Under the pieces are notes generated by a model, which was not told the origin of the DNA, did not search any database, and was given only the letters and a program-made list of their open reading frames with translations. 64,000 bases of DNA, taken from Peromyscus leucopus (lineage: Eukaryota > Chordata > Mammalia > Rodentia > Cricetidae). The translations under genes and the position numbers were made by a program. Positions 20,785 to 49,324 of the stretch are shown piece by piece; positions within the stretch are counted from its first letter, which is position 1, and every line of letters begins with the position of its first letter. The stretch covers positions 51,563,453 to 51,627,452 of the forward strand of contig NC_051068.1 in NCBI RefSeq assembly GCF_004664715.2, given 5' to 3'.

Positions 20785-21249
20785 TGTATATGTAACCAAC
20801 CATCTTATTAAATAAGAAACACAGAACCAACGCAAAGAAGAAAGCCAAGAGATCAGAGCTAAGAGCCTTACCTGCCTGCTGCAGCTAGCCTCTTAAGCCA
20901 AGAGACCTCTCTGAAAGAGACCTACTTCCTGTCTGTCTATGTTTATATAGACTTTCTGTTCTGCTTTCTCATTGGTTGTAAACCCAACCACATGACTGCC
21001 TCGTCACTGCCTGTATGTACAACCCTCCTGGTCTTCTATGTTATTGAGATTAAAGGCATGTCTCCAATGCTGGCTGTATCCTTGACCATACAGAGATCTA
21101 CCTAGTTCTGCCTACCAAGTGCTGGGATTAAAGGTGTGCACCATGAATGCCCAGCTCTGCTATAGCTTGCTATTAGCTCTGACCCCCAGGCAACTTTATT
21201 TATTAACATACAAATAAAATCACATTTCAGTACAAATAAAATATCAGCA
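20785..21249 (-). repeat. LTR-B as 3' LTR of the 20.8-22.7 kb element
   Basis: In sense (minus) it starts TGCTGATATT and ends TTACATATACA. It holds AATAAATAAAGTTGCC near its 5' end, a B1-derived segment, a CCAAT box (AACCAATGAGAAAG) and a TATA box (TCTATATAAACA), so a promoter layout is still readable. Confidence 0.75.
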
Positions 21250-37205: not shown

Positions 37206-38484
37206 AAATAAAACATAAAAAAAGAATAATCATTATTTTTTCTCAGATGGATTTTTCAAATAAAATAATATTGTTATAAATGAAATGTCCCATGCAGATG
37301 GCAGATGACCACAATATAAACTCTCCCCCCATGTTTGTCGGGGAGGGGGGGGCATGGAGGACTCAGAAGTTGAAATTGGATTTTTTTTATTGGTCTTCAA
37401 GTATTTACCAAGGCAGGATTCTGCATATATCAAGATCTCAAGCTTAGGAATAAACTATTCTAGCTTGTAGCTTGCCAGGATATGTCCTACTACTGCCTCT
37501 CAGGGTGGAGAATTCCCACTGGTTGCTGCACTGGCCTGACACATCTTTGTGGGGAAGCACTTTATCCCAGAACCATCTCCCTAGGCGCCAATGTAGTCCT
37601 TTCTTAAACGTTATTTTCCTTCTTCAAAGGTTGTTTTCTTGTCCAATGGACATGCAAAGTCAAAACACAGGAGTTTCCTTGTAAAAGTCACAGGCTGTAA
37701 ACTGGAGAGTACTGATGCAAAAGAGGTAGACACAATGGTTTCTGGAGAAGGGCAGCAGATGTTAATTTAGTAGGTCAATTGGTTACCACCTGTGACTGCT
37801 GCTGAAAGGCTAACTTGGCCTGACCTCTGATCTGTCTTACCCTTTCTATACTGATCACTAATTTGTTCCTTTCATCCAGGTTTAGTCAAGTTCATCACCA
37901 CCAGGCCCTTAGTCATCTCTAGAGATCAGAATAGATTTGAAGTGCATGACATCTGATATTTAAATCCATAATTAGAAGAAAAAAATATATATCTACTCCT
38001 ACAAAATGTGCAAATGGGATTTATAAAACATGACAAATGAAATGATACTTTAAAAAAAAAAAAAAAGCACATGAAAATAACAGGAGTAAATTTTGAACCA
38101 GGGGGCAGTGCCGGGTCATTAGCTGACAGCTAGTGGAAAGGTCAGTCTGAGCACACCTCCCTTCACTAGGCTAACCGGAGATATCAATCATTACCTGTCT
38201 GGACTGTTTATAAGTTGGTCATATAATATTATGTTTCTCCACTTGTTCACTAGCTGTTTCACTAAAATTCCCTCTTAGTCATTCTATATGTGAATCACGT
38301 TCCTTTTCAAAATGTCTTAAGTATATGAAACAGAAAGACAACGCAACATCCCTCCATGTCTTCGCATGTACGGGCCAAGGCAGCACCCCAAATGTGCAAA
38401 TAGGAATGCTTTTCAGACATTGCCTACATTTATCTCAATACATTTCTGTGACAACTGCCATAAACTAATTTACCTGATTTGCTG
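37206..38484. other. Unassigned sequence
   Basis: No family or exon recognised. It contains a G-rich run (37,340-37,351) and an A run near 38,051. Confidence 0.4.
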
Positions 38485-38760
38485 GTTGGGTTTTGTTAAC
38501 TTGACACTACCTAGATCTTCTCATGACAGAGAATTTTAATTCAGAAAATGCCATCATCATATGTGACCTGTGAGCACATCAGTGGGGCATTTTCCTGGTT
38601 AATTGTTGGTGTGTAAGAGCCCTGTTCACTGTGGGTGGTGCCAGCACTGGGAAGTTGGTCATATGTTATATAAGAATACTGGCTAAATATATTCTATGTT
38701 CCCCAGGTTGGTTTAGTTACCTCAAGAGAGAAGCAAACTAGTACAGTAACTATACTACAT
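38485..38760 (+). repeat. Rodent interspersed repeat, possibly hAT-type
   Basis: TTGTTAACTTGACACTACCT end followed by CACTGTGGGTGGTGCCAGCA; same family and orientation as 3640-4010. Confidence 0.45.
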
Positions 38761-39544
38761 CAGAGAATCAAAAATGGTGTGAGAAACTGATATAAACTGG
38801 TAGCTAAATTTGTGAAGATTTTTGATATATTAAGAAAATCTAGAATTTTTTTAAATTAAATATTAAAACTTTATTCAATTACACTTTCTGTATTTCCCCA
38901 AATCAATTACAATTTTCATTTTATAAGCAACTCAATTTTAAATGTAAATGGAGATTTTTTAATTTGGAAACATTTAGTTTTGTACTATACAGCTTCATAA
39001 ATGCATATAAGAGTGCTTTTGCTATTTTATTCCACCATCACCTAAACTATGCTTTAAGTCAGAAAGTTACTGAGTAAATAATCCAGTAAAGAAAGGATTT
39101 GAACAGCAGTTACTTCCTTGATTATTCTTTAAATAAAAAAGCTGAACAGTGAATATTAAAGCCTTAAGTTTAAATATTGCTATACTCAATCTAATTTTGT
39201 TATTCTCTAATTAAACCCTACAATATAGAAAGGAAACAAAATAATTAAAATAATATACAAAATTAAGTCATTGAATAAATGGGTGATAAATTTGTTTATC
39301 TATATCTTTATGTCAAATGTATACATCAAAATGTATAGATTAACATCAAAATGTATCCATTTACTAGATTTTTTTAAATGTCCAAATATTATAAGACCCA
39401 ACATAAATTTCAAAATATGTGTATGAAATGTTTGTCATACTAGATTGGTGATAAAACAAATATCATAAATGACAGAGTTTTCAATCCTTAAAAATTATGA
39501 TTACAATAGTTGGTCAATACAATATAACTCAATGATATTTTTGT
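38761..39544. other. Unassigned AT-rich sequence
   Basis: Nothing recognised. Confidence 0.45.
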
Positions 39545-39801
39545 AGATGTTCTGTCTCATTTTGTTTGTTTTTTGTTTTTTATTATTTTTTGTTTTTTTG
39601 TCTTTCTGGTCCTTTAATTGCATACTTTGGTTTCTTTTTGTGTCTTTCTGTGGAAATTTGCATGAGATTCTTGTTTTTTGTTTGTTTTGGCTTTTTTTTG
39701 TTCTTGTTTTCTATTGTTTTTATTTAAAGAAAGGGAGGAAAAAAGAACCTAAAGTTGGGTAGGTAGGGAAGTGAGAGGATCTGAGTGGAAATTGAGGAGG
39801 C

Positions 39802-40197
39802 TGTAGCTGGAGTTTCGTTGTGTCCTGGCAGGCTGGCAGTCAGGACAAATCTCTCCCACTCTCATTCCCCAAGTAAACACACAGAGGCTTACATTAACTA
39901 TAACTCCTGGGCCATTAGCTCATACTTATTACTGACTAGCTCTTACACTTAAATTAACCTATAATTCTTATTTATATTTAGCCATGTGGCTTAGTACCTT
40001 TTCTCAGTTCTGGCTTGTCATCTTGCTTCCTCTGTGTCTGGCTGGTGACTCCTGACTCTGCCTTCCTCTTCCCAGAATTCTCCTTGTCTCCTTATCCCAC
40101 CTATACTTCCTGCCTGGCTACTGGCCAATCAGCATTTTATTTGTCAACCAATCAGAGAAATGCATATTCACAGAATACAGAACGACATTCCACACCA
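39802..40197 (+). repeat. Solo LTR, family LTR-A, 396 bp, perfect 6-bp duplication
   Basis: Starts TGTAGCTGGAGTTTCG and ends CACACCA; flanks GGAGGC at 39,796-39,801 and 40,198-40,203 are identical. This is the clearest reference copy of LTR-A in the window. Confidence 0.9.
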
Positions 40198-40203
40198 GGA
40201 GGC

Positions 40204-40350
40204 AAAAACTTGTTCAAAATATATTGTTTGACATTTTTTTTCAGTAAAAATGTGGTTATTTGTTAGAGGAAAATGAAAGAAAAATTCTGAAAAAGTCACC
40301 ATGCATTCAATAATATTCATATTAGCCATAATGAATGTGATCACTGATAG

Positions 40351-40412
<62 letters not shown>

Positions 40413-41043
40413 CATATATATTGTTTGTGTATCTGCACTGCTTCCTCCTACTACTGTCAAAAACTGTTTGTTGTTTCTCTTTGAGGAAAAACTATCTCCA
40501 TTACTTTGCTTTCTATCCTAGTGGGTTATACACTAAAATTCACTCTAATCCACTGAGAGAAAATGGAAGGGAACACAAATCTGCCATTTTAGTTGGAGGG
40601 TAGCAAAGCAGAATCACTATAGAAGATGATATCTCATAAAATTCTAAATCTTGGCAAATGATATCCATCAAACAAACAGGTATGACTTAATACACATGAA
40701 AATTATACCATCTGCCAGTACTTTGCAGTCAGAAAAAAAATAACAGATCCAGAAAATGTTACAACTGTCTTCTCTCTTTTCACCCAAAAATAAAGTTCAA
40801 GTTTTCTTTTAACATTTTTTAATTTCCTTTCTTTCTCTCCCCCCTTCAAATGTCAGGTTTCTTTCCCTTCATCTCCATGTCATAGATTGTTGACTAATTA
40901 TCTGTTTCTTTCTGTGAATATAATATTTGTCTCTTTGAGGTTTAAATTTCCTTGATCAATTAAATGTGATATTCACAAGAGAAAATGACATATTAAAATA
41001 ATTTTTGTTGGAAATACTGTTGGAAAAAACACAATAATTATCA
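40204..41043. other. Unassigned sequence with (CT)29 at 40,352-40,409
   Basis: A long perfect CT run is the only recognised feature. The remainder is AT-rich and unassigned. Confidence 0.5.
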
Positions 41044-41049
41044 TATATA

Positions 41050-41472
41050 TGTGGTGGTAATCTAATTATACTGAAATGTGATTTTGATTGTATCTTAATA
41101 AATAAAGTTGCCCGGGGGTCAGAGCTATTAGAGCCATAGCAAGAGTGTGGCGGTGGTGGCACACGCCTTTAGTCCTAGCATTCCAGAGATAGAAATCCCT
41201 CTGGATCTCTGTGAGTTCAAGGCCACATTGGAAATAGCCAAGCATGGTGGTGACACACTCCTTTAATCCCAGAAAACCAGCCTTTAATCCCAGGGAGTGG
41301 TGATAGAAAGCAAAAAGATATATAAGGCGTGAGGACCAGAAACTAGAAGCATTTTGCTGGTTAAGCTTTCAGGCTTTGGAGCAACACAGTTCAGCTGAGA
41401 GCTATTGGGATGAGGACACAGAAGCTTCCAGTCTGAGGAAACAGGACCAGCTGAGGAACTGGTGAGGTGAGA
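41050..41472 (+). repeat. Left LTR-B arm (plus orientation), U3 and part of R
   Basis: Begins TGTGGTGGTAATC. Carries AATAAATAAAGTTGCC, B1-derived sequence (GGCGGTGGTGGCACACGCC) and a TATA box (AGATATATAAGGCG). It stops at GGTGAGGTGAGA, inside what the 55.4-kb copy shows to be a longer LTR, and is followed at once by pol. It is the reverse complement of the right arm; I count only two mismatches. Confidence 0.88.
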
Positions 41473-41474
41473 CA

Positions 41475-42584
41475 ATAACTGATGATCTTCCAAAGACACC
41501 AATAGCTCTACCTTTAAAATGGTTAACAGACAAGCCTGTATGGGTCCAACAATGGCCTTTAACAACAGAGAAACTCCAGGCTTTAGAAGAGCTGGTAGAA
41601 GAACAGTTAAATGCTCAGCATATTGAAAAATCAAGTAGCCCCTGGAATTCTCCTGTCTTTGTTGTTAAAAAGAAATCTGGCAAATGGAGAAGGGTAACAG
41701 ACCTTAGAGCAATTAACAAAGTAATTCAGCCAATGGGCTCTCTACAATCTGGGATGCCTTTGCCTACTCTGTTACCAAAAGGATGGCCTCTCATAGTTAT
41801 TGATTTAAAAGACTGTTTCTTTTCAATACCCTTACAAGAAAAAGACAAAGAAAGATTTGCTTTTACAGTGCCTACTTATAATAATTCTCAACCGGTTAAA
41901 AGATTTCAATGGAGGGTCCTCCCACAGGGAATGTTGAATAGCCCAACTCTGTGCCAATATTTTGTACAACAGCCATTGGAAGTGATACGTAAAAAAATTC
42001 CTAAATCTATAATTTATCATTATATGGACGATATTTTACTAGCTGACTCAAATGAAGATACTTTAGAAATAATGTTTGAAGAAGTAAAGAAAATTTTGCC
42101 TTGCTGGGGATTACAAATTGCTCCTGAAAAGATACAAAGAGGAGATTCTATTAATTATTTAGGATACAAAATAGAACTACAAAAAATTAGACCCCAAAAG
42201 GTGCAAATTCAGAGAAATAGATTACAGACTCTTAATGACTTTCAAAGATTATTTGGAGACATTTCTCATCTACGAACTACTGTTGGGGTAAAAAATGATG
42301 AACTGACTAATTTGTTCAAAACCTTAGAAGGTGACAAGGACTTAAATACTCCAAGAGAATTATCACCTGAAGCTGAGAAAGAATTAGCCTTGGTAGAAAA
42401 GAAAGTGCATGAAGGGCACGTGGATCGTATTGATCCAAAGCTGGATTGCATTTTGGTTATTTTACAATCTAGGCATTCTCCTACTGGAATATTAATGCAG
42501 AGGGAAGATATTATATTGGAATGGATATTTTTACCAAATAAACCAAATAAAAAATTAAAAACTTATGTGGAAAAAAATCTCTGA
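41475..42584 (+). pseudogene. pol: Retroviral pol, reverse transcriptase (frame 1)
   Basis: Betaretrovirus/IAP-type reverse transcriptase, which copies viral RNA into DNA. The frame is open from the left LTR junction to a stop at 42,582 and shows LPLKWLTDKPVWV near its start, the VIDLKDCFF catalytic-aspartate region, LPQGM (41,919-41,933) and the YMDD active site (42,021-42,032). No start codon belongs to it; in a provirus this part is made by frameshifting from gag-pro. Reading ends early because of a shift at the A7 run 42,571-42,577. Confidence 0.9.
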
Positions 42585-43770
42585 CTTGATTTACAAAGGA
42601 AAACTGAGACTTCGTCAATTAGCAGGCATAGACCCAGCAGAAATTGTCGTACCATTAACTAAGGAGGACATTGAAAAATTATGGATAGAAAGTGAACCTT
42701 GGCAAAGAGCTTGCAGTAATTTTTTGGGAGAAATTAACAGCAAATATCCCAAAAGCAATAGAATTGATCTTATAAAGAGAGCTGATTGGATCTTGCCTCG
42801 AATTGTACGGCAAAAACCCATATCTGGAGTTCGTACATTTTATACAGATGCCAACAAAGAAGGAAAGGCAGGTTACAAATCAGAAAATTTAAGTAAAGTG
42901 GTTCAAAGTCCGTATAATTCAGTTCAAAAATCAGAATTGTATGCTATTCTGTTGGTATTAATAGATTTTTCAGAACCTCTCAACATAGTAACTGACTCTC
43001 AGTATGCTGAAAGAGTGGTGTTACATATTGAGACTGCAGAATTTATCCCTGATGCTTCAGAATTAACTTCATTATTTATTCAATTACAAGATACAATTAG
43101 GAAAAGGAATCATCCTTTATATATAACTCACATTCGATCCCATACTGGTCTGCCAGGCCCTTTAGCACAAGGCAATGATGAGATTGATAAATTATTGATA
43201 GGAAATGTGCTGGAGGCCTCAGAATTTCATAAAAAACATCACATTAATAGTAAAGGTTTAAAAAAGGATTTTTCCATAACCTGGCAACAAGCCAAAGAAA
43301 TAGTAAAGAAATGTCCTACTTGTTCCTTCTACAATCAAACGCCATTACCAGCAGGATGTAACCCAAAGGGTACTCAGAGAAATGAAATCTGGCAGATGGA
43401 TGTGTTTCACTTTGCAGAATTTGGAAAATTAAAATATGTACACCACACTATCGATACTTATTCAGGATTTCAATGGGCAACTGCTTTGAGTTCTGAAAAA
43501 GCTGATTCTGTAATCACTCATTTGCTAGAAGTTATGGCCATCATGGGTATACCTGCACAAATCAAAACTGACAATGCTCCATCATATGTCTCAACTCTAA
43601 AGGATATGCTAAATAAACAGAAATGGGTAACAAAAACCCCCAGAAATAGACTGCATAATGCTCTTCTAACTTTGAATTTTCTGAATGCCAATGAGAAAGG
43701 AACAACAGCTGCAGAGAGTCATTGGATAATAGAAAAAAACTACAGAATTAAATCAGCCTATATACTTTAA
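42565..43770 (+). pseudogene. pol: Retroviral pol, RNase H and integrase (frame 2)
   Basis: Continues pol in another frame. RNase H catalytic acids are present: D (42,847), E (42,934), D (42,994), D (43,177). The integrase zinc-binding HHCC region lies at 43,228-43,323, with CPTC near its end. Integrase core aspartates are at 43,399 and 43,570, but the segment after SYVS (about 43,590) is missing and the third catalytic acid, a glutamate, is not found. A second shift at the A7 run 43,733-43,739 ends the frame. The integrase would therefore be inactive. Confidence 0.9.
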
Positions 43771-43915
43771 GGATGTGCTGACCTCAGAATGGAAACCAGG
43801 GTATGTATTACATTGGGGACGAGGTTTTGCTTTTGTTTCTACAGGAGAAGATAAGCTGTGGGTACCATCAAAATTGATAAAGGTTCGATTTGAACAAGAG
43901 AGACCTCTTAATTAG
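43740..43915 (+). pseudogene. pol: Integrase C-terminal domain (frame 3)
   Basis: The third frame contains WKPGYVLHWGRGFAFVS and LWVPSKLIKVRF, the DNA-binding C-terminal domain seen at the end of betaretroviral integrase, then a stop at 43,913-43,915. It is out of frame with the core. Confidence 0.8.
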
Positions 43916-44273
43916 AGGAGGTGATAGTTCATCAACCAGCATGAACATCCAATTTAAACTAACTGGTATCAATAATACATGCCTTTTCATTTAATCAGAT
44001 AATAACTTGTCAAAAGGAAATATCCCCAAAATTAGTCTTGGGGAAAGGTTTTTGTTTTTGTCTTTTAGGAGAATGAAGGTTAAGGAATTTGAAGAAAACT
44101 GGACAAATGAGACAACTGAAGAAAAGGGACAAATCATCTATCCCAAGAAACAGAGTGAAACGGTGTATGGGTATATATTATCTAAAAAATTTTTATGTCT
44201 TCCTAAATGTTTGTTTCTGCTTTTCTCTAAAGATTTAACACTATTGGTTTTCTAATAGTCCCAGTTCAATTAA
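43916..44273 (+). mobile_element. Post-pol region, unassigned
   Basis: A pyrimidine tract ending TTTTGTCTTTTAG (44,048-44,069) resembles a splice acceptor, as before env in retroviruses. The downstream frame (44,007-44,255, 82 codons) contains two NxT sequons in ENWTNETTEE, but I recognise no Env domain. It could be an env remnant or a joining piece. Confidence 0.4.
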
Positions 44274-44807
44274 AATTTAAAAGCTGATTTTGGAGTTGGA
44301 GAAAATTCAGGAGAAAACATAAAGAAAATTTTTTGGCAAACTTCTATTAATGAACAAAGACCAAAATTAATGATAAAAATAAATGGTGTTTTGTTGTCTG
44401 GTCTGGTAGACACAGGTGCAGACGTTACCATAATTGCACCAGAATTTTGGCATCCAACTTGGCCTCTTCAGGAGGTAAACGTTCAACTGTTAGGAATTGG
44501 GACATTATCTCAGGTGAAACAGAGTGCAAGATGGCTCGAATGTATAGGTCCAGAAGGACAGAGAGGAAAATTAAAACCATATGTGGCTAACATAACTATG
44601 AACCTGTGGGGTCGAGACTTGTTGCAACAATGGGATACTCAGATTAACATCCCTCCAATCTCAGAAACAAATCATAACCTAACACATGTTACTGAGAGAA
44701 ATATTAGAAGATATTATTCTAATGAGTGGTCACCAGCCATCCATATTATACAAGAACAAGGGCAACAGAATGCCCCTTCCTTCTGGAGTATGCAGAAGGT
44801 GTGGTAA
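44274..44807 (+). pseudogene. pro: Retroviral aspartic protease
   Basis: The frame opens at 44,274 and contains the active-site motif LVDTGADVTII (Asp codon at 44,409) and the conserved WGRDLLQQW near its C-terminus. This enzyme cleaves Gag and Pol polyproteins as a dimer. Upstream ADFGVGENSG fits the region before protease in class II viruses. After about IHIIQEQG (44,740-44,763) the frame runs into Gag sequence out of frame, so the join there is a rearrangement. Protease lies downstream of integrase, the reverse of the normal order. Confidence 0.88.
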
Positions 44808-44979
44808 GGGAAAACACTGGACCAACGAATGTAGATCAACAAAGGACAGACAGGGTAATCCTTTGCCTCAGTCTTTGGGAAACTCCCAGAGGGGCCTCAC
44901 GCAGGCCCCCAGTGCAAATCCAGTTCAAACCTTTCCTGCAGCTATAGAGGAAATGCCTGCTCTGGAGAGCGATTAAATA
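44770..44979 (+). pseudogene. gag: Gag nucleocapsid C-terminal zinc knuckle and Gag end
   Basis: The frame contains one CCHC zinc knuckle, CRRCGKGKHWTNEC (44,791-44,832; C-x2-C-x4-H-x4-C), then a proline/glutamine-rich tail typical of the end of class II Gag and a stop at 44,977. Only the last knuckle is present; the first knuckle, capsid and matrix are missing. It begins right at the junction with protease. Confidence 0.85.
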
Positions 44980-45050
44980 ACCAAATGCCTATTGGAATAA
45001 ATCATGCTGGTCAGGTTGATGAAACAGAGAGAATAGAACGAGAAAGCTAG
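44943..45050 (+). pseudogene. Possible start of pro frame after Gag
   Basis: A frame at -1 to Gag stays open for about 36 codons across the Gag stop (YRGNACSGERLNN onward) and ends at TAG 45,048. Position and frame fit the gag-pro overlap of class II retroviruses; no enzyme motif is visible. Confidence 0.4.
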
Positions 45051-45311
45051 TCTGGCGTGCAGGGGCGCTTCTCCATCAGAACTGATGAGAAAAGGAATAG
45101 ACCTGACCATTTCAGAAGAGACTAGTCACAGAGAGAAGGGAGAACCCAGAACGGCAATTCTGCACCCGGGAATAGCATAGTCTGCTACGGCAGAAGAGAA
45201 CCAAGACAGAGCCAACGATGCAAAAAGATATGAAAAGCCGAGAATGGCAGTGGTGTCTAGTGCTCCAAGGACGGAGAGACATGTGTAAGGAGCGTGCTGC
45301 AGCACTGTTCA
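45051..45311. mobile_element. Unassigned 261-bp segment next to the right LTR arm
   Basis: GC-richer than the rest. Starts TCTGGCGTGCAGGGGCGC, which faintly recalls a primer-binding-site/leader region, but no tRNA match can be shown. Read on the minus strand it directly continues the LTR, so it could be R-U5/leader sequence. Confidence 0.3.
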
Positions 45312-45734
45312 TCTCACCTCACCAGTTCCTCAGCTGGTCCTGTTTCCTCAGACTGGAAGCTTCTGTGTCCTCATCCCAATAGCTCTCAGCTGAACTGTGT
45401 TGCTCCAAAGCCTGAAAGCTTAACCAGCAAAATGCTTCTAGTTTCTGGTCCTCACGCCTTATATATCTTTTTGCTTTCTATCACCACTCCCTGGGATTAA
45501 AGGCTGGTTTTCTGGGATTAAAGGAGTGTGTCACCACCATGCTTGGCTATTTCCAATGTGGCCTTGAACTCACAGAGATCCAGAGGGATTTCTATCTCTG
45601 GAATGCTAGGACTAAAGGTGTGTGCCACCACCGCCACACTCTTGCTATGGCTCTAATAGCTCTGACCCCCGGGCAACTTTATTTATTAACATACAATCAA
45701 AATCACATTTCAGTATAATTAGATTACCACCACA
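45312..45734 (-). repeat. Right LTR-B arm (minus orientation)
   Basis: Reverse complement of 41,050-41,472, exactly the same length (423 bp), with two differences noticed (one at a CpG). It ends CCACCACA at 45,734, then TATATA. Confidence 0.9.
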
Positions 45735-45740
45735 TATATA

Positions 45741-46094
45741 TGTTTATTGCATGTGTTTAATAATGCATGATGGTGAGAATGTATGCAAGCATGTGTGCTA
45801 GTGTTTGTTTATATAAATATGCCAATAGTCAGATATGTATTCTATAGTGGAACAAAATTACGTGGAGTAGCATAGAGAGTTATACACTTGTACAAAGCAT
45901 ACTGTAAATAATAATAGAAACTTATTGTTAGCTAGTTTGTTTTCTACCTTTAAGCATACTTCTGTCAGGCTATTAAACTCCTGAGATGGGTCTGTCTGCC
46001 TACCCACCAACCTGGGAAATCTTGCTCTTGTCCCCAGATATCAGGAAGAGTAGAAAATGGCTTTATTCTAAAGACAAGGAATTGTAGGGATTTT
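45741..46094. other. Unassigned sequence
   Basis: Nothing recognised. Confidence 0.45.
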
Positions 46095-46100
46095 GTAATG

Positions 46101-46373
46101 TATAGATGAATTTGGAGGAAGGGCTGAGGAGGAGTCACCAGACACAAAGGAAGCAACATCTCAAGGCAGAACTGAGAAAAGGTACCAAGCCCCGTGACTA
46201 AACATAGATAAGAATTATGGATTAATTTAAATGTAAGAGTTAGTAATAGGCCTGAGCTAATGGCCAAGCAGTTGCAATTAATATAAGCCTCTGTGTGTTT
46301 GCTTGGGGGATGTGAGTGGGAGAGATAGTTCCCAAATGCTGGCCGGCTGGGACACAGAAAAACTCCAGCTACA
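46101..46373 (-). repeat. Solo LTR, family LTR-A, shortened
   Basis: Sense start TGTAGCTGGAGTTTTTC at 46,373; follows LTR-A with an internal shortening near its 3' end. Flanks GTAATG at 46,095-46,100 and 46,374-46,379 are identical. The last two bases in sense read TA, not CA. Confidence 0.8.
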
Positions 46374-46379
46374 GTAATG

Positions 46380-47164
46380 AGCATCGGATCCTGATTTGTC
46401 TGTTGTTTTTTTTTTTCTTTCCCCAAGGTGACCTGAAAGGTGCAGTGGTGGAAGGAAACAAAGGAAAAAGAAAGAAAAATATAGGTATAAATGTGAGTGA
46501 AAGAGAGAGAGGAGATAGGATGATCTTTAGAAACCAACTGTGGAAGTGAGGGGTTATTCCAGGACAAGCAACACCATTCACACATGGAGTCCAGAGCAGC
46601 AAAAGTCTGTCAAGCTGAGGCAATCCTAAACAGCGAGTTAGAGAGCAAAGAGAGGAGGAATGATTCTAGAGAGAAGCTAGGGGTATGTATAACAGAAAGA
46701 AACAGAGGAAGCCGGCACCAGCAACAGAGGGAACCTGTACGGGAGAGGAGGAAACGGTGGGGCGTGGGGTGGGAAATGTGCTAGTTAGGACAGGGTAAGG
46801 AATTCCAAGTGAGCTAATGTGAGAAGAAATGAGAACAAGCGAGCACTAACCAGAGTAGGAAGTGTGTGAGGAAAAAAAAGGGGGGGGGTGAAAAGGGACT
46901 GGAACAGAATATGTGTCAGTACGAGGGACAGAGGAAAATGTTAAACCAAATCTAATTTCTAGTCCTACATGTGAGCACACGGCACCAAGCTTCTGCTGTA
47001 TTTTCTTTATTTTGTCTTCATTCCTCCTCTTTTTCTTGTCATGGTTTTACTTCTTCCTCCTCCTCCTTCTTTGATCGGTCAGCATAGCAGTGGATAACAA
47101 TTATGAGAATGGAAATACATGGATTATACTGAAGATAACAAAACCCTGTGCCACTCTCATTTTA
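46380..47164. other. Unassigned, purine-rich sequence
   Basis: 46,440-46,930 is strongly AG-rich on the plus strand with scattered CpGs and a G run at 46,879-46,888. No family recognised. Confidence 0.4.
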
Positions 47165-47650
47165 GTAAGGGTTGCTCTCTCCAAGAAAAGAGATCAGAAG
47201 TGCTGGCCAAGATGAGGAGTAAGTGCATCCTTGTGAACTGATGGGGATGATAAGAATGAGTACAGCCAATTTGAAAAATGAATGGATGGAGCAATTCCTT
47301 AAAAGATAAAAATAAAACCACCACTGAGGAAATAATCTCGTTATGGTGTCAACTATATCTGTTCCACTGGGTATATCATAACCCTGTCCACAATGCCCAA
47401 GAAACAGAATTTCCATCAGCTATTTGTGGATGAAGTACCTGGAGGCATATTTACAAAATGAATTATTATGTAGCCACAAAAGGATGTAATCCTGTTACTT
47501 TTGGTGCCAAGAATAGAACTAAGAATTATTCTTGATTGAAATATCCAATTTCAGCAACACAGGAACCACATTTCCTTCATGTGTGTATTATAAAAACATT
47601 GATGCTATAGAAACTGAGGACAGAATGGTGATTACAGTGATTACAACTGG
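47165..47650 (+). repeat. Ancient L1 ORF2 3' relic (mammal-wide type)
   Basis: Order of degraded landmarks (GAGTACAGCCAATTTGAAAA, CACTGGGTATATCATAACCC, AATTATTATGTAGCCACAAA) matches the end of old L1 ORF2. No reading frame survives. Confidence 0.55.
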
Positions 47651-49324
47651 TAAAAGGACAGTTAAGGAAACTTGCCACTCTTGTATAGAACCTTGTTTTC
47701 AGCACCCAAAAAGGGCATGTAACACTGGTGTGAGGGAATTCTACACTCTTTTCTGTCGTCCTCGGGCATCTGCACTCAGGTGCACACACCCAACCAGACA
47801 TGCATGCATATAAATAATTAAATAATAATAACAAAATATTTAAACTAGTGCAAATTACTAGAGGCTGGAGAGAGTAGGGAGTGATAAGAGATTGGGAAAA
47901 TTCAATCAATGGTCACGAATATATTGGTAAAAAGCATTTAGACATTCTGGTAAGCTGATTTAGATTTGAGAAAGATGATAATGATGGTAATGTAATGGTG
48001 TAATGTAATTCCTAAGAAATATTTTGAAAAAAACTCTCCAGAAATAAAGTATTTGAGAAGATGAATATGGTATCCTTGATTAAAGATTTTAAAATTCATA
48101 CATGTGTAGAAAAATTCTGTTCTATTCAAGATATGTATAATTTTTATTCTTGCGCATACTAATTTAAAATTCCACTTACATTTGAGTCTGGACACGTGGA
48201 CCAGTGGTCAAGAGCATTCATTTTTACAGAAATCTGTGTTTGATTTCCAGCACCCACCTATACACAGAAAATAAAAATGAATACATATTTAACAATCATT
48301 TGTGTTAAAAATAATAGAATATTTTATATGAGTATGGCACTTGAATAAATTTGATTCCTTTATGTCAAGGCTTTGCCATCCTCATCTTTTAATTGTGTGT
48401 TTGTTTTAGTTCATGGGTGTTTGTAGGTACTCACTGACAAACAGTGCATTTGAATGTGTGTAGTTCTATATGATTTGTCTTTCCATGCAACACGTCTAAT
48501 CAGCATTAATTTCATTGGTGACTTAGGAGTATGGATATTAAGTTATTAGGCTTATTACCAAGATATCTTTTAGGATTTGAGAACATGCAATGTTAACTTA
48601 GAAATGTCACAAATATTATCAAAATTAACTTTAAAATAGAAAACAAAGAATGTCTATAATTCAGGAATGGGATTATATACTGTATGAAGTGATGATATTG
48701 ACCTTTGATCATAAGTGAGATATAATAGAGAATCTGCTATGTATAGTCATGATATTGTGAAAACAACATTAGTGCATTCCTTAAGTTATGTTAATAGTTT
48801 GAGTATGATCACACTCAATGATTATGGCTGAAGGATTTACCCCCTTCTTTCCCATTACTATCACATTTTTAATGTCTCTAACGTTAAAGACAGTACAGTG
48901 TAGAAATCCTAGCCAGAGAGGGTGAGATGACTGCACCTGCTTACGGCAGTGATGCAATTCCTACCGGGGTTAGCATGAGCCAATGCATTAAGTAAAATAG
49001 TGACAAAAATGAGTTCAATCTTCCAAAAACAGTATATAAAACTTGTTGTTTGGGTAAGGGGAGGGCGGTACTCTGAAAATTGGGGCAAATTTGGTCATAT
49101 GTCATCATAAATGGGAAGTTTATGATATTCTCAAAAATAAATTAAAATAAAAAATAAATGAAAACCAAAATATACACACCTTGAGTCACCATAGTTTGTT
49201 TTCTATATTCATTCTTAAATGGATTTATTTCATTCCATATCAAGTATATTAAAAGTCAAGTGAAAATATATAAGGCTAAATTAACAAAATTGCATATAAT
49301 TATTTTTTCTTTTTATAAATGAAA
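47651..49324. other. Mostly unassigned; B2/ID-like fragment at 48,185-48,290
   Basis: Only GTGGTCAAGAGCATTC and TTTGATTTCCAGCACCCACC suggest a degraded tRNA-derived SINE head. The rest is AT-rich and unassigned. Confidence 0.4.

Follow-up and report, generated by a model that had tools for sequence, protein, structure and literature searches.

A one-off defective retrovirus integrant with reversed gene blocks, a host scrap and mirror-image ends in Peromyscus leucopus

A 64,000-nucleotide stretch of the Peromyscus leucopus genome (contig NC_051068.1, positions 51,563,453 to 51,627,452; hereafter, the window) contains a one-off defective retrovirus integrant that consists of viral pieces in reversed order, a scrap of host sequence and mirror-image ends. 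The pol-pro-gag order of this element sits within an integrated unit of 4.7 kb (41,050-45,734 of the window). A previous sequence-only reading had called pol, protease and the last Gag knuckle in that order, all on the plus strand, as the Pfam domains confirm; its interpretation is partly supported by the present analysis, and the inverted long terminal repeats (LTRs) and the host insert had gone unnoticed.

The Pfam scan, which covered eight reading frames, identified on the plus strand the reverse transcriptase (RT), thumb, RNase H and integrase zinc-binding, core and DNA-binding domains (41,475-43,915), an aspartyl protease in frame at 44,274-44,807 and a Gag zinc knuckle at about 44,779-44,874. 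The nearest solved structures by sequence were 7sr6 for RT (E 1.2e-126), 3sqf for the protease (E 3.3e-21) and 1cl4 for the Gag knuckle (E 8e-10). All three parts of the window element are thus betaretrovirus-like.

The native order of the blocks was established from other copies in the same genome. A search with the protease block produced 40 scored matches (the window and 39 others) among 2,249 candidates, and 20 loci, including the window, were fetched. In all 19 other fetched copies, the protease is directly followed by pol, which disposes of the possibility that an intact relative natively has the reversed order. The gag-tail block lies immediately ahead of the protease, with a match of 267 bp or more, in 17 of these 19 copies; in the remaining two, L018 lacks such a match and L025 shows 31 bp of it. 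The same native order is found in the public protein P0001; because P0001 has no dUTPase, the idea that one lies between gag and protease was abandoned. The named protein matches include rodent relatives from Scotinomys, Cricetulus and Sigmodon, and the protease query gave no match in the viral contig collection. Direct LTRs are present on both sides in two of the three native copies that were followed outward, with the third showing the 3' LTR only, and about 2.3 kb separates the end of block A (RT to the 3' flank of integrase; Table 1) from the 3' LTR in three native copies.

Compared with the native copies, blocks A, B and C of the window are adjacent pieces of the virus, each used once, in reversed order. 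Base-by-base comparison shows that block C ends in ...ATAGAA and block B starts at AGAA or just past it, with 0-4 nt shared, and that block B ends in ...GAACA and block A starts 4-5 nt further on in the native sequence; protease and pol were, as anticipated from the letters, nearly adjacent in the original. The microhomology that had been proposed as a check was found at two block junctions, AGAA at A/B and GAACA at B/C, and AT is shared at the host/LTR junction. The coding blocks lie where they had been placed, and the pol block, which had been ended at 43,915, continues to 44,303, as the sequence at 43,916-44,300 follows integrase natively in all three copies compared. An integrase segment of 99 bp is absent from the window at 43592/43593. 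Under independent breakpoints in a genome of an assumed 7 kb, the coincidence of two breakpoint pairs within 4 and 5 nt has an analytic P of 2e-6, and simulation of independent breakpoints yielded both coincidences in 4 of 2,000,000 draws. The abutting breakpoint pairs are not due to chance.

The ends of the unit were delineated by a repeat search of the window, which detected an inverted repeat of 437 nt (41,036-41,472 and 45,312-45,748, 99% complementary). Its arms are truncated LTRs, the left one broken off at position 423 and the right one at 424; both begin with U3, and the U3 ends point outward. The hexamer TATATA, which starts at 0.11-0.18% of the window positions, abuts the unit on both sides and represents a 6-bp target duplication. 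Therefore, the whole unit was most simply integrated through its two U3 ends. Among the features of a class II endogenous retrovirus (ERV), the 6-bp target duplication is present in the window element, and direct LTRs, a primer site and the gag-pro-pol order are missing; no lysine-3-type primer site was found in the window. The coordinates of all parts are collected in Table 1.

Table 1. Parts of the window element, in window coordinates
Feature	Coordinates	Strand	Remarks
Left target-site duplication, TATATA	41044..41049	.	6 bp
Left LTR	41050..41472	+	positions 1-423 of the 603-bp LTR (U3 start to ...GAGGTGAGA); U5 end lost; joined to pol
Block A: RT, RNase H, integrase, native 3' flank of integrase	41473..44303	+	native contiguity minus 99 bp at 43592/43593
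End of block A: native sequence downstream of integrase	43916..44303	+	3/3 native copies compared
Junction A/B	44300..44303	.	AGAA common to both sides
Block B: protease	44304..44758	+	
Junction B/C	44754..44758	.	GAACA common to both sides; single genomic match
Block C: last Gag zinc knuckle, Gag C-terminus, protease-frame N-terminus	44759..45038	+	
Single extra C, block C to host piece	45039..45039	.	
Captured host sequence z	45040..45312	+	other genomic place: C17:49455302-49455570, 96% identical
Right LTR, inverted	45311..45734	-	positions 424-1; U3 end outward; AT (45311-45312) shared with z
Right target-site duplication, TATATA	45735..45740	.	6 bp

The host piece z, of about 270 bp, occurs at two places in the genome (2/2 candidates), the window and the C17 locus. 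The match stops at the junctions, marked by one extra C on the gag side and the shared AT on the LTR side, and the two copies differ by 8 substitutions and a 2-bp indel. A viral origin of z was rejected, as it is found neither in the flanks of the 19 protease copies nor in three native 5'/3' neighbourhoods and was then placed on C17; a Gag query retrieved three proteins, and no reading frame of z appears convincingly gag by eye. An LTR-like stretch, 69.6% identical, was noted with the C17 match, about 260 bp away. For the viral blocks, substitutions private to the window number 9 in 1,500 columns of A, 0 in 464 of B (biased low because the native copies were chosen by likeness to block B) and 1 in 272 of C (10 in 2,236); A and B also have an inserted base apiece. 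By comparison with the 96% match to C17 (L040, L041), the viral blocks look younger, and the assembly may lack the copy or allele that served as donor.

The element is a single integrant. The string across the B/C junction and that across the 99-bp deletion each match the genome once, in the window, and the host insert occurs here and on C17 only; from these two strings and the insert there is no sign of a propagating scrambled subfamily, a prospect that the sequence-only reading had raised.

The LTR family was surveyed by searching the genome with the right arm. The 40 scored matches, from 3,209 first-look candidates, correspond to 38 loci. Two of these are inverted pairs, in the window and on C11, and the other 36 are single matches, all of which were inspected with their inner flanks; the loci are the highest-scoring copies rather than a random sample. 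A further LTR search with 4,515 first-look candidates listed 40 copies, of which 15 were new and were covered as coordinates only. In 34 of the 36 single copies, the match spans the full 603 positions of the L005 LTR (TGTGG...CATCAATA, with small variants). These comprise 22 solo LTRs with 6-bp duplications beyond the LTR, 7 copies followed by the primer site (tctggcgcccaacg or a close variant), 4 that lie behind a purine tract (gaaaaggggaaa) and L070, which shows neither primer site nor purine tract. The primer site TGGCGCCCAACG, or a one-base variant of it, adjoins the LTR in 7 of the 36, and the same 22 of 36 solo copies carry the 6-bp duplication typical of class II ERVs. The two remaining copies are cut elsewhere than the window arms, L055 at 486 and L061 at 488, and none of the 36 is cut at 423/424. 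In integrated members of this family (for example, L005, 1501-2103), the U5 end is ...CATCAATA, which finishes in TA, and the U3 end starts with TGTGG. Retroviral ends usually finish in CA.

Both window arms carry T at LTR position 306, a base seen in 0 of the 36 other copies, and the two arms therefore probably derive from one parental LTR, judging from this shared variant. The left arm alone has C at position 45, and the arms differ at 116. Two differences in 423 bp suggest that the element is young, though gene conversion can homogenise inverted arms, and no age is assigned.

Several other integrants in the 38 loci have unusual ends. At C11:51366531-51367751, two LTRs (1-581 and 1-598) are joined U5 to U5 with U3 outward, and A172 is common to its two arms but absent from all 36 single copies. 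At C10:62850291-62851516, an LTR, a primer site and a leader of about 470 bp are followed by an inverted LTR piece (148-1), all flanked by TTCTTT on either side. At C1:14326634 (L060/L081), an LTR and primer site are followed by two segments of the integrase tail with its 3' flank, the first short and forward, the second inverted; the right end, GGTACCCACA (U3-like ...CCCACA), stands before GAAAGG, which is also present on the left. Four hybrid-ended loci (L046/L080, L065/L082, L066/L083 and L055) have U3 on the left, a right end that resembles U5 of a different LTR family (...CTACA or ...CAACA), and the same hexamer on the left and right. These four are of the U3/U5 type and lend no support to a U3/U3 reading; they show that unlike ends can integrate together. 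Altogether, three loci are U3/U3 (the window, C10 and C11), one combines U3 with an internal U3-like end (C1), 22 are solo LTRs, four are LTRs behind a purine tract, four are hybrid-ended, and four are unclassified (L044, L061, L070 and L073). For L061 (C3:6925918), no close partner LTR and no CA with a matching flank hexamer were found in the inspected regions of about 0.6 kb and 6 kb.

We consider it fairly likely that the window element belongs to a young class II (ERVK) family and is a single defective integrant produced in one aberrant round of reverse transcription with serial template jumps. In this scenario, the plus strand would start normally at U3 and, without its U5 end, jump into pol and copy block A. 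It would then jump back to the protease and copy block B up to the start of A, jump to gag and copy block C up to the start of B, and finally move onto a host template. The reversed order would follow from a polymerase that always jumps back on one template and halts where its earlier copy began. Tail-to-tail joining to a second U3-started strand, cut at the same place, followed by fill-in, would give a duplex that carries U3 at both ends and that integrase would insert; the longer of the two strands would read LTR(1-423)-A-B-C-host and the shorter one LTR(1-424). In a mirror version, minus-strand synthesis would proceed on RNA consumed behind the enzyme by RNase H, giving the same product, indistinguishable here. 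PMC3187697 describes forced and dynamic copy choice, their dependence on RNase H and discontinuous plus strands, and PMC4997597 describes patching with host sequences (host RNA patches).

The sequence-only reading had offered two forward template jumps, or recombination of several RNAs, as the origin of the order. Template jumping remains the likely class of event; the inverted LTRs, the two U3 ends and the host insert imply that two forward jumps alone do not account for the element. The three viral blocks read as a single-use copy of one template, and more than one RNA need not be invoked for them.

More tentatively, this family may make recurrent integrants with plus-strand start ends on both sides (U3/U3, or U3 with an internal U3-like TGTGG end), derived from plus strands joined tail to tail and accepted by integrase. 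C10, C11, the window and C1 could each be read as two plus strands with plus-strand start ends, joined at their 3' tails and filled in. The U5 end ...CATCAATA, which lacks CA, might favour U3/U3 pairs, and the window element would then be the use-once readout of a single template.

Several observations weigh against the reading of one aberrant round of reverse transcription. Order and adjacency alone do not separate polymerase jumping from breakage and rejoining, and two junctions show little homology: 1 nt between LTR and pol, none between gag and host, where one base was added. The common stop at 423/424 is without explanation: none of the other copies surveyed is cut there, and RNA structure as its cause was rejected, as no special fold is present at that place (z-score -0.77). 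The differences between z and its C17 counterpart exceed what the private substitutions of the viral blocks suggest; therefore, C17 may be a relative of the donor rather than the direct donor. With respect to the other integrants, the flanks on C11 (GCTAAA and GCTAAG) agree in 5 of 6 bases, and two substitutions plus an 11-base gap separate the C11 arms; the C10 arms have no private base in common and differ at 2 of 148 positions.

The main rival is breakage and microhomology-mediated end joining, in which linear viral DNA was broken at two points, cellular repair misordered the pieces together with a host fragment and left LTR pieces at the ends, with integration of the product as the last step. 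Breaks in one molecule are compatible with adjacent breakpoints and little loss, and the microhomologies of 4-5 nt, the 1-nt homology and the 1-nt insertion fit end joining. Nevertheless, we regard this route as rather unlikely, because the three viral blocks share one orientation and are exactly reversed in order, the cuts in the two LTRs lie no more than one base apart, both LTRs have U3 outward, the product retained two integrase-competent ends, and two further U3/U3 integrants suggest a replication error over random repair. An assembly artefact is highly improbable: repeats can be misjoined and a single assembly was examined, but there is no N across 38,000-48,000, which removes the concern that the junctions coincide with assembly gaps, the target duplication and microhomologies are present, and a second integrant, on C10, has a perfect duplication.

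Even less credence is due to scrambling of an ordinary provirus within the chromosome. Inverted repeats can, as a matter of general knowledge, drive rearrangement, and nothing specific in the window supports it; the right LTR meets the target duplication with U3 where an ordinary one would do so with U5, and exact inversion of the right LTR alone plus two exact block moves would be required. Autointegration, in which the ends of viral DNA attack that same DNA, would produce inverted LTRs, and in its inversion circles the LTRs end up in opposite orientation. It is equally implausible for the window element, although deletion or inversion circles with reactive LTR ends are its products in PMC2644782: no window junction lies at an LTR terminus, the LTRs being truncated inside (423/424 of 603), the two block joints carry 4 and 5 nt of microhomology, and the product is linear and integrated with its own 6-bp target duplication.

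DIRS-type retrotransposons, like the window element, have inverted terminal repeats. DIRS elements encode a tyrosine recombinase and make no target duplication, in contrast to the window element, whose pol has retroviral integrase domains and which is flanked by a 6-bp duplication; the search for a tyrosine recombinase consisted of the Pfam scan of eight frames, with no dedicated one. Nonhomologous recombination, forced copy choice and host patching resemble what is seen in the window in their template switches at short homologies and their host pieces (PMC3187697 and PMC4997597). The window element differs from them in the complete block reversal, the single use of each block, the second U3-started strand and the two-U3 integration. 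The element family is probably mysTR-related ERVK, a name taken from a published description and from the host. According to PMC10089650, mysTR-related ERVK elements are abundant in the deer mouse, their subfamilies are reported to have no env, and there are related nonautonomous subfamilies. The mysTR-related ERVK elements of Peromyscus are, like the copies here, young and abundant class II elements that have pro-pol and, ahead of the 3' LTR, a further region downstream of pol (same source). The native copies here have the ordinary gene order, whereas the window element is scrambled with inverted LTRs.

The real surprise is the combination of the inverted two-U3 structure with the use-once reversal of the blocks. 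Reverse transcription that succeeded is what retroviral DNA in a genome normally records; in this element, integrase seems instead to have rescued a product that had failed, and jumps, stops and partner strands thereby become readable from the genome. In the literature search, a U3/U3 integrant is named in no listed title or abstract opening, with subscription literature mostly outside its scope. If such integrants recur, they would provide a natural assay of how frequently plus strands are joined tail to tail, and would test whether two unlike ends are a requirement of integrase and whether a copied template is closed to later jumps. As a caution, annotated pairs of inverted solo LTRs may be single insertions.

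Some additional observations concern the surroundings and the searches. An older inverted repeat pair (window 39801-40041 and 46138-46374, 80-86%) lies outside the target duplications and probably consists of unrelated dispersed repeats. Neither the window nor the C17 region contains an Rfam family at the gathering threshold. Among the protein matches, P0010 is an endogenous protease-pol fragment that closely resembles P0021 of Cricetulus; its record is assigned to Pseudomonas sp. MAP12, with a longest contig of 7,031 bp, and is probably animal contamination. Elsewhere in the window, a minus-strand piece at 21120-21249 is 79-81% identical to the start of an LTR of the same kind.

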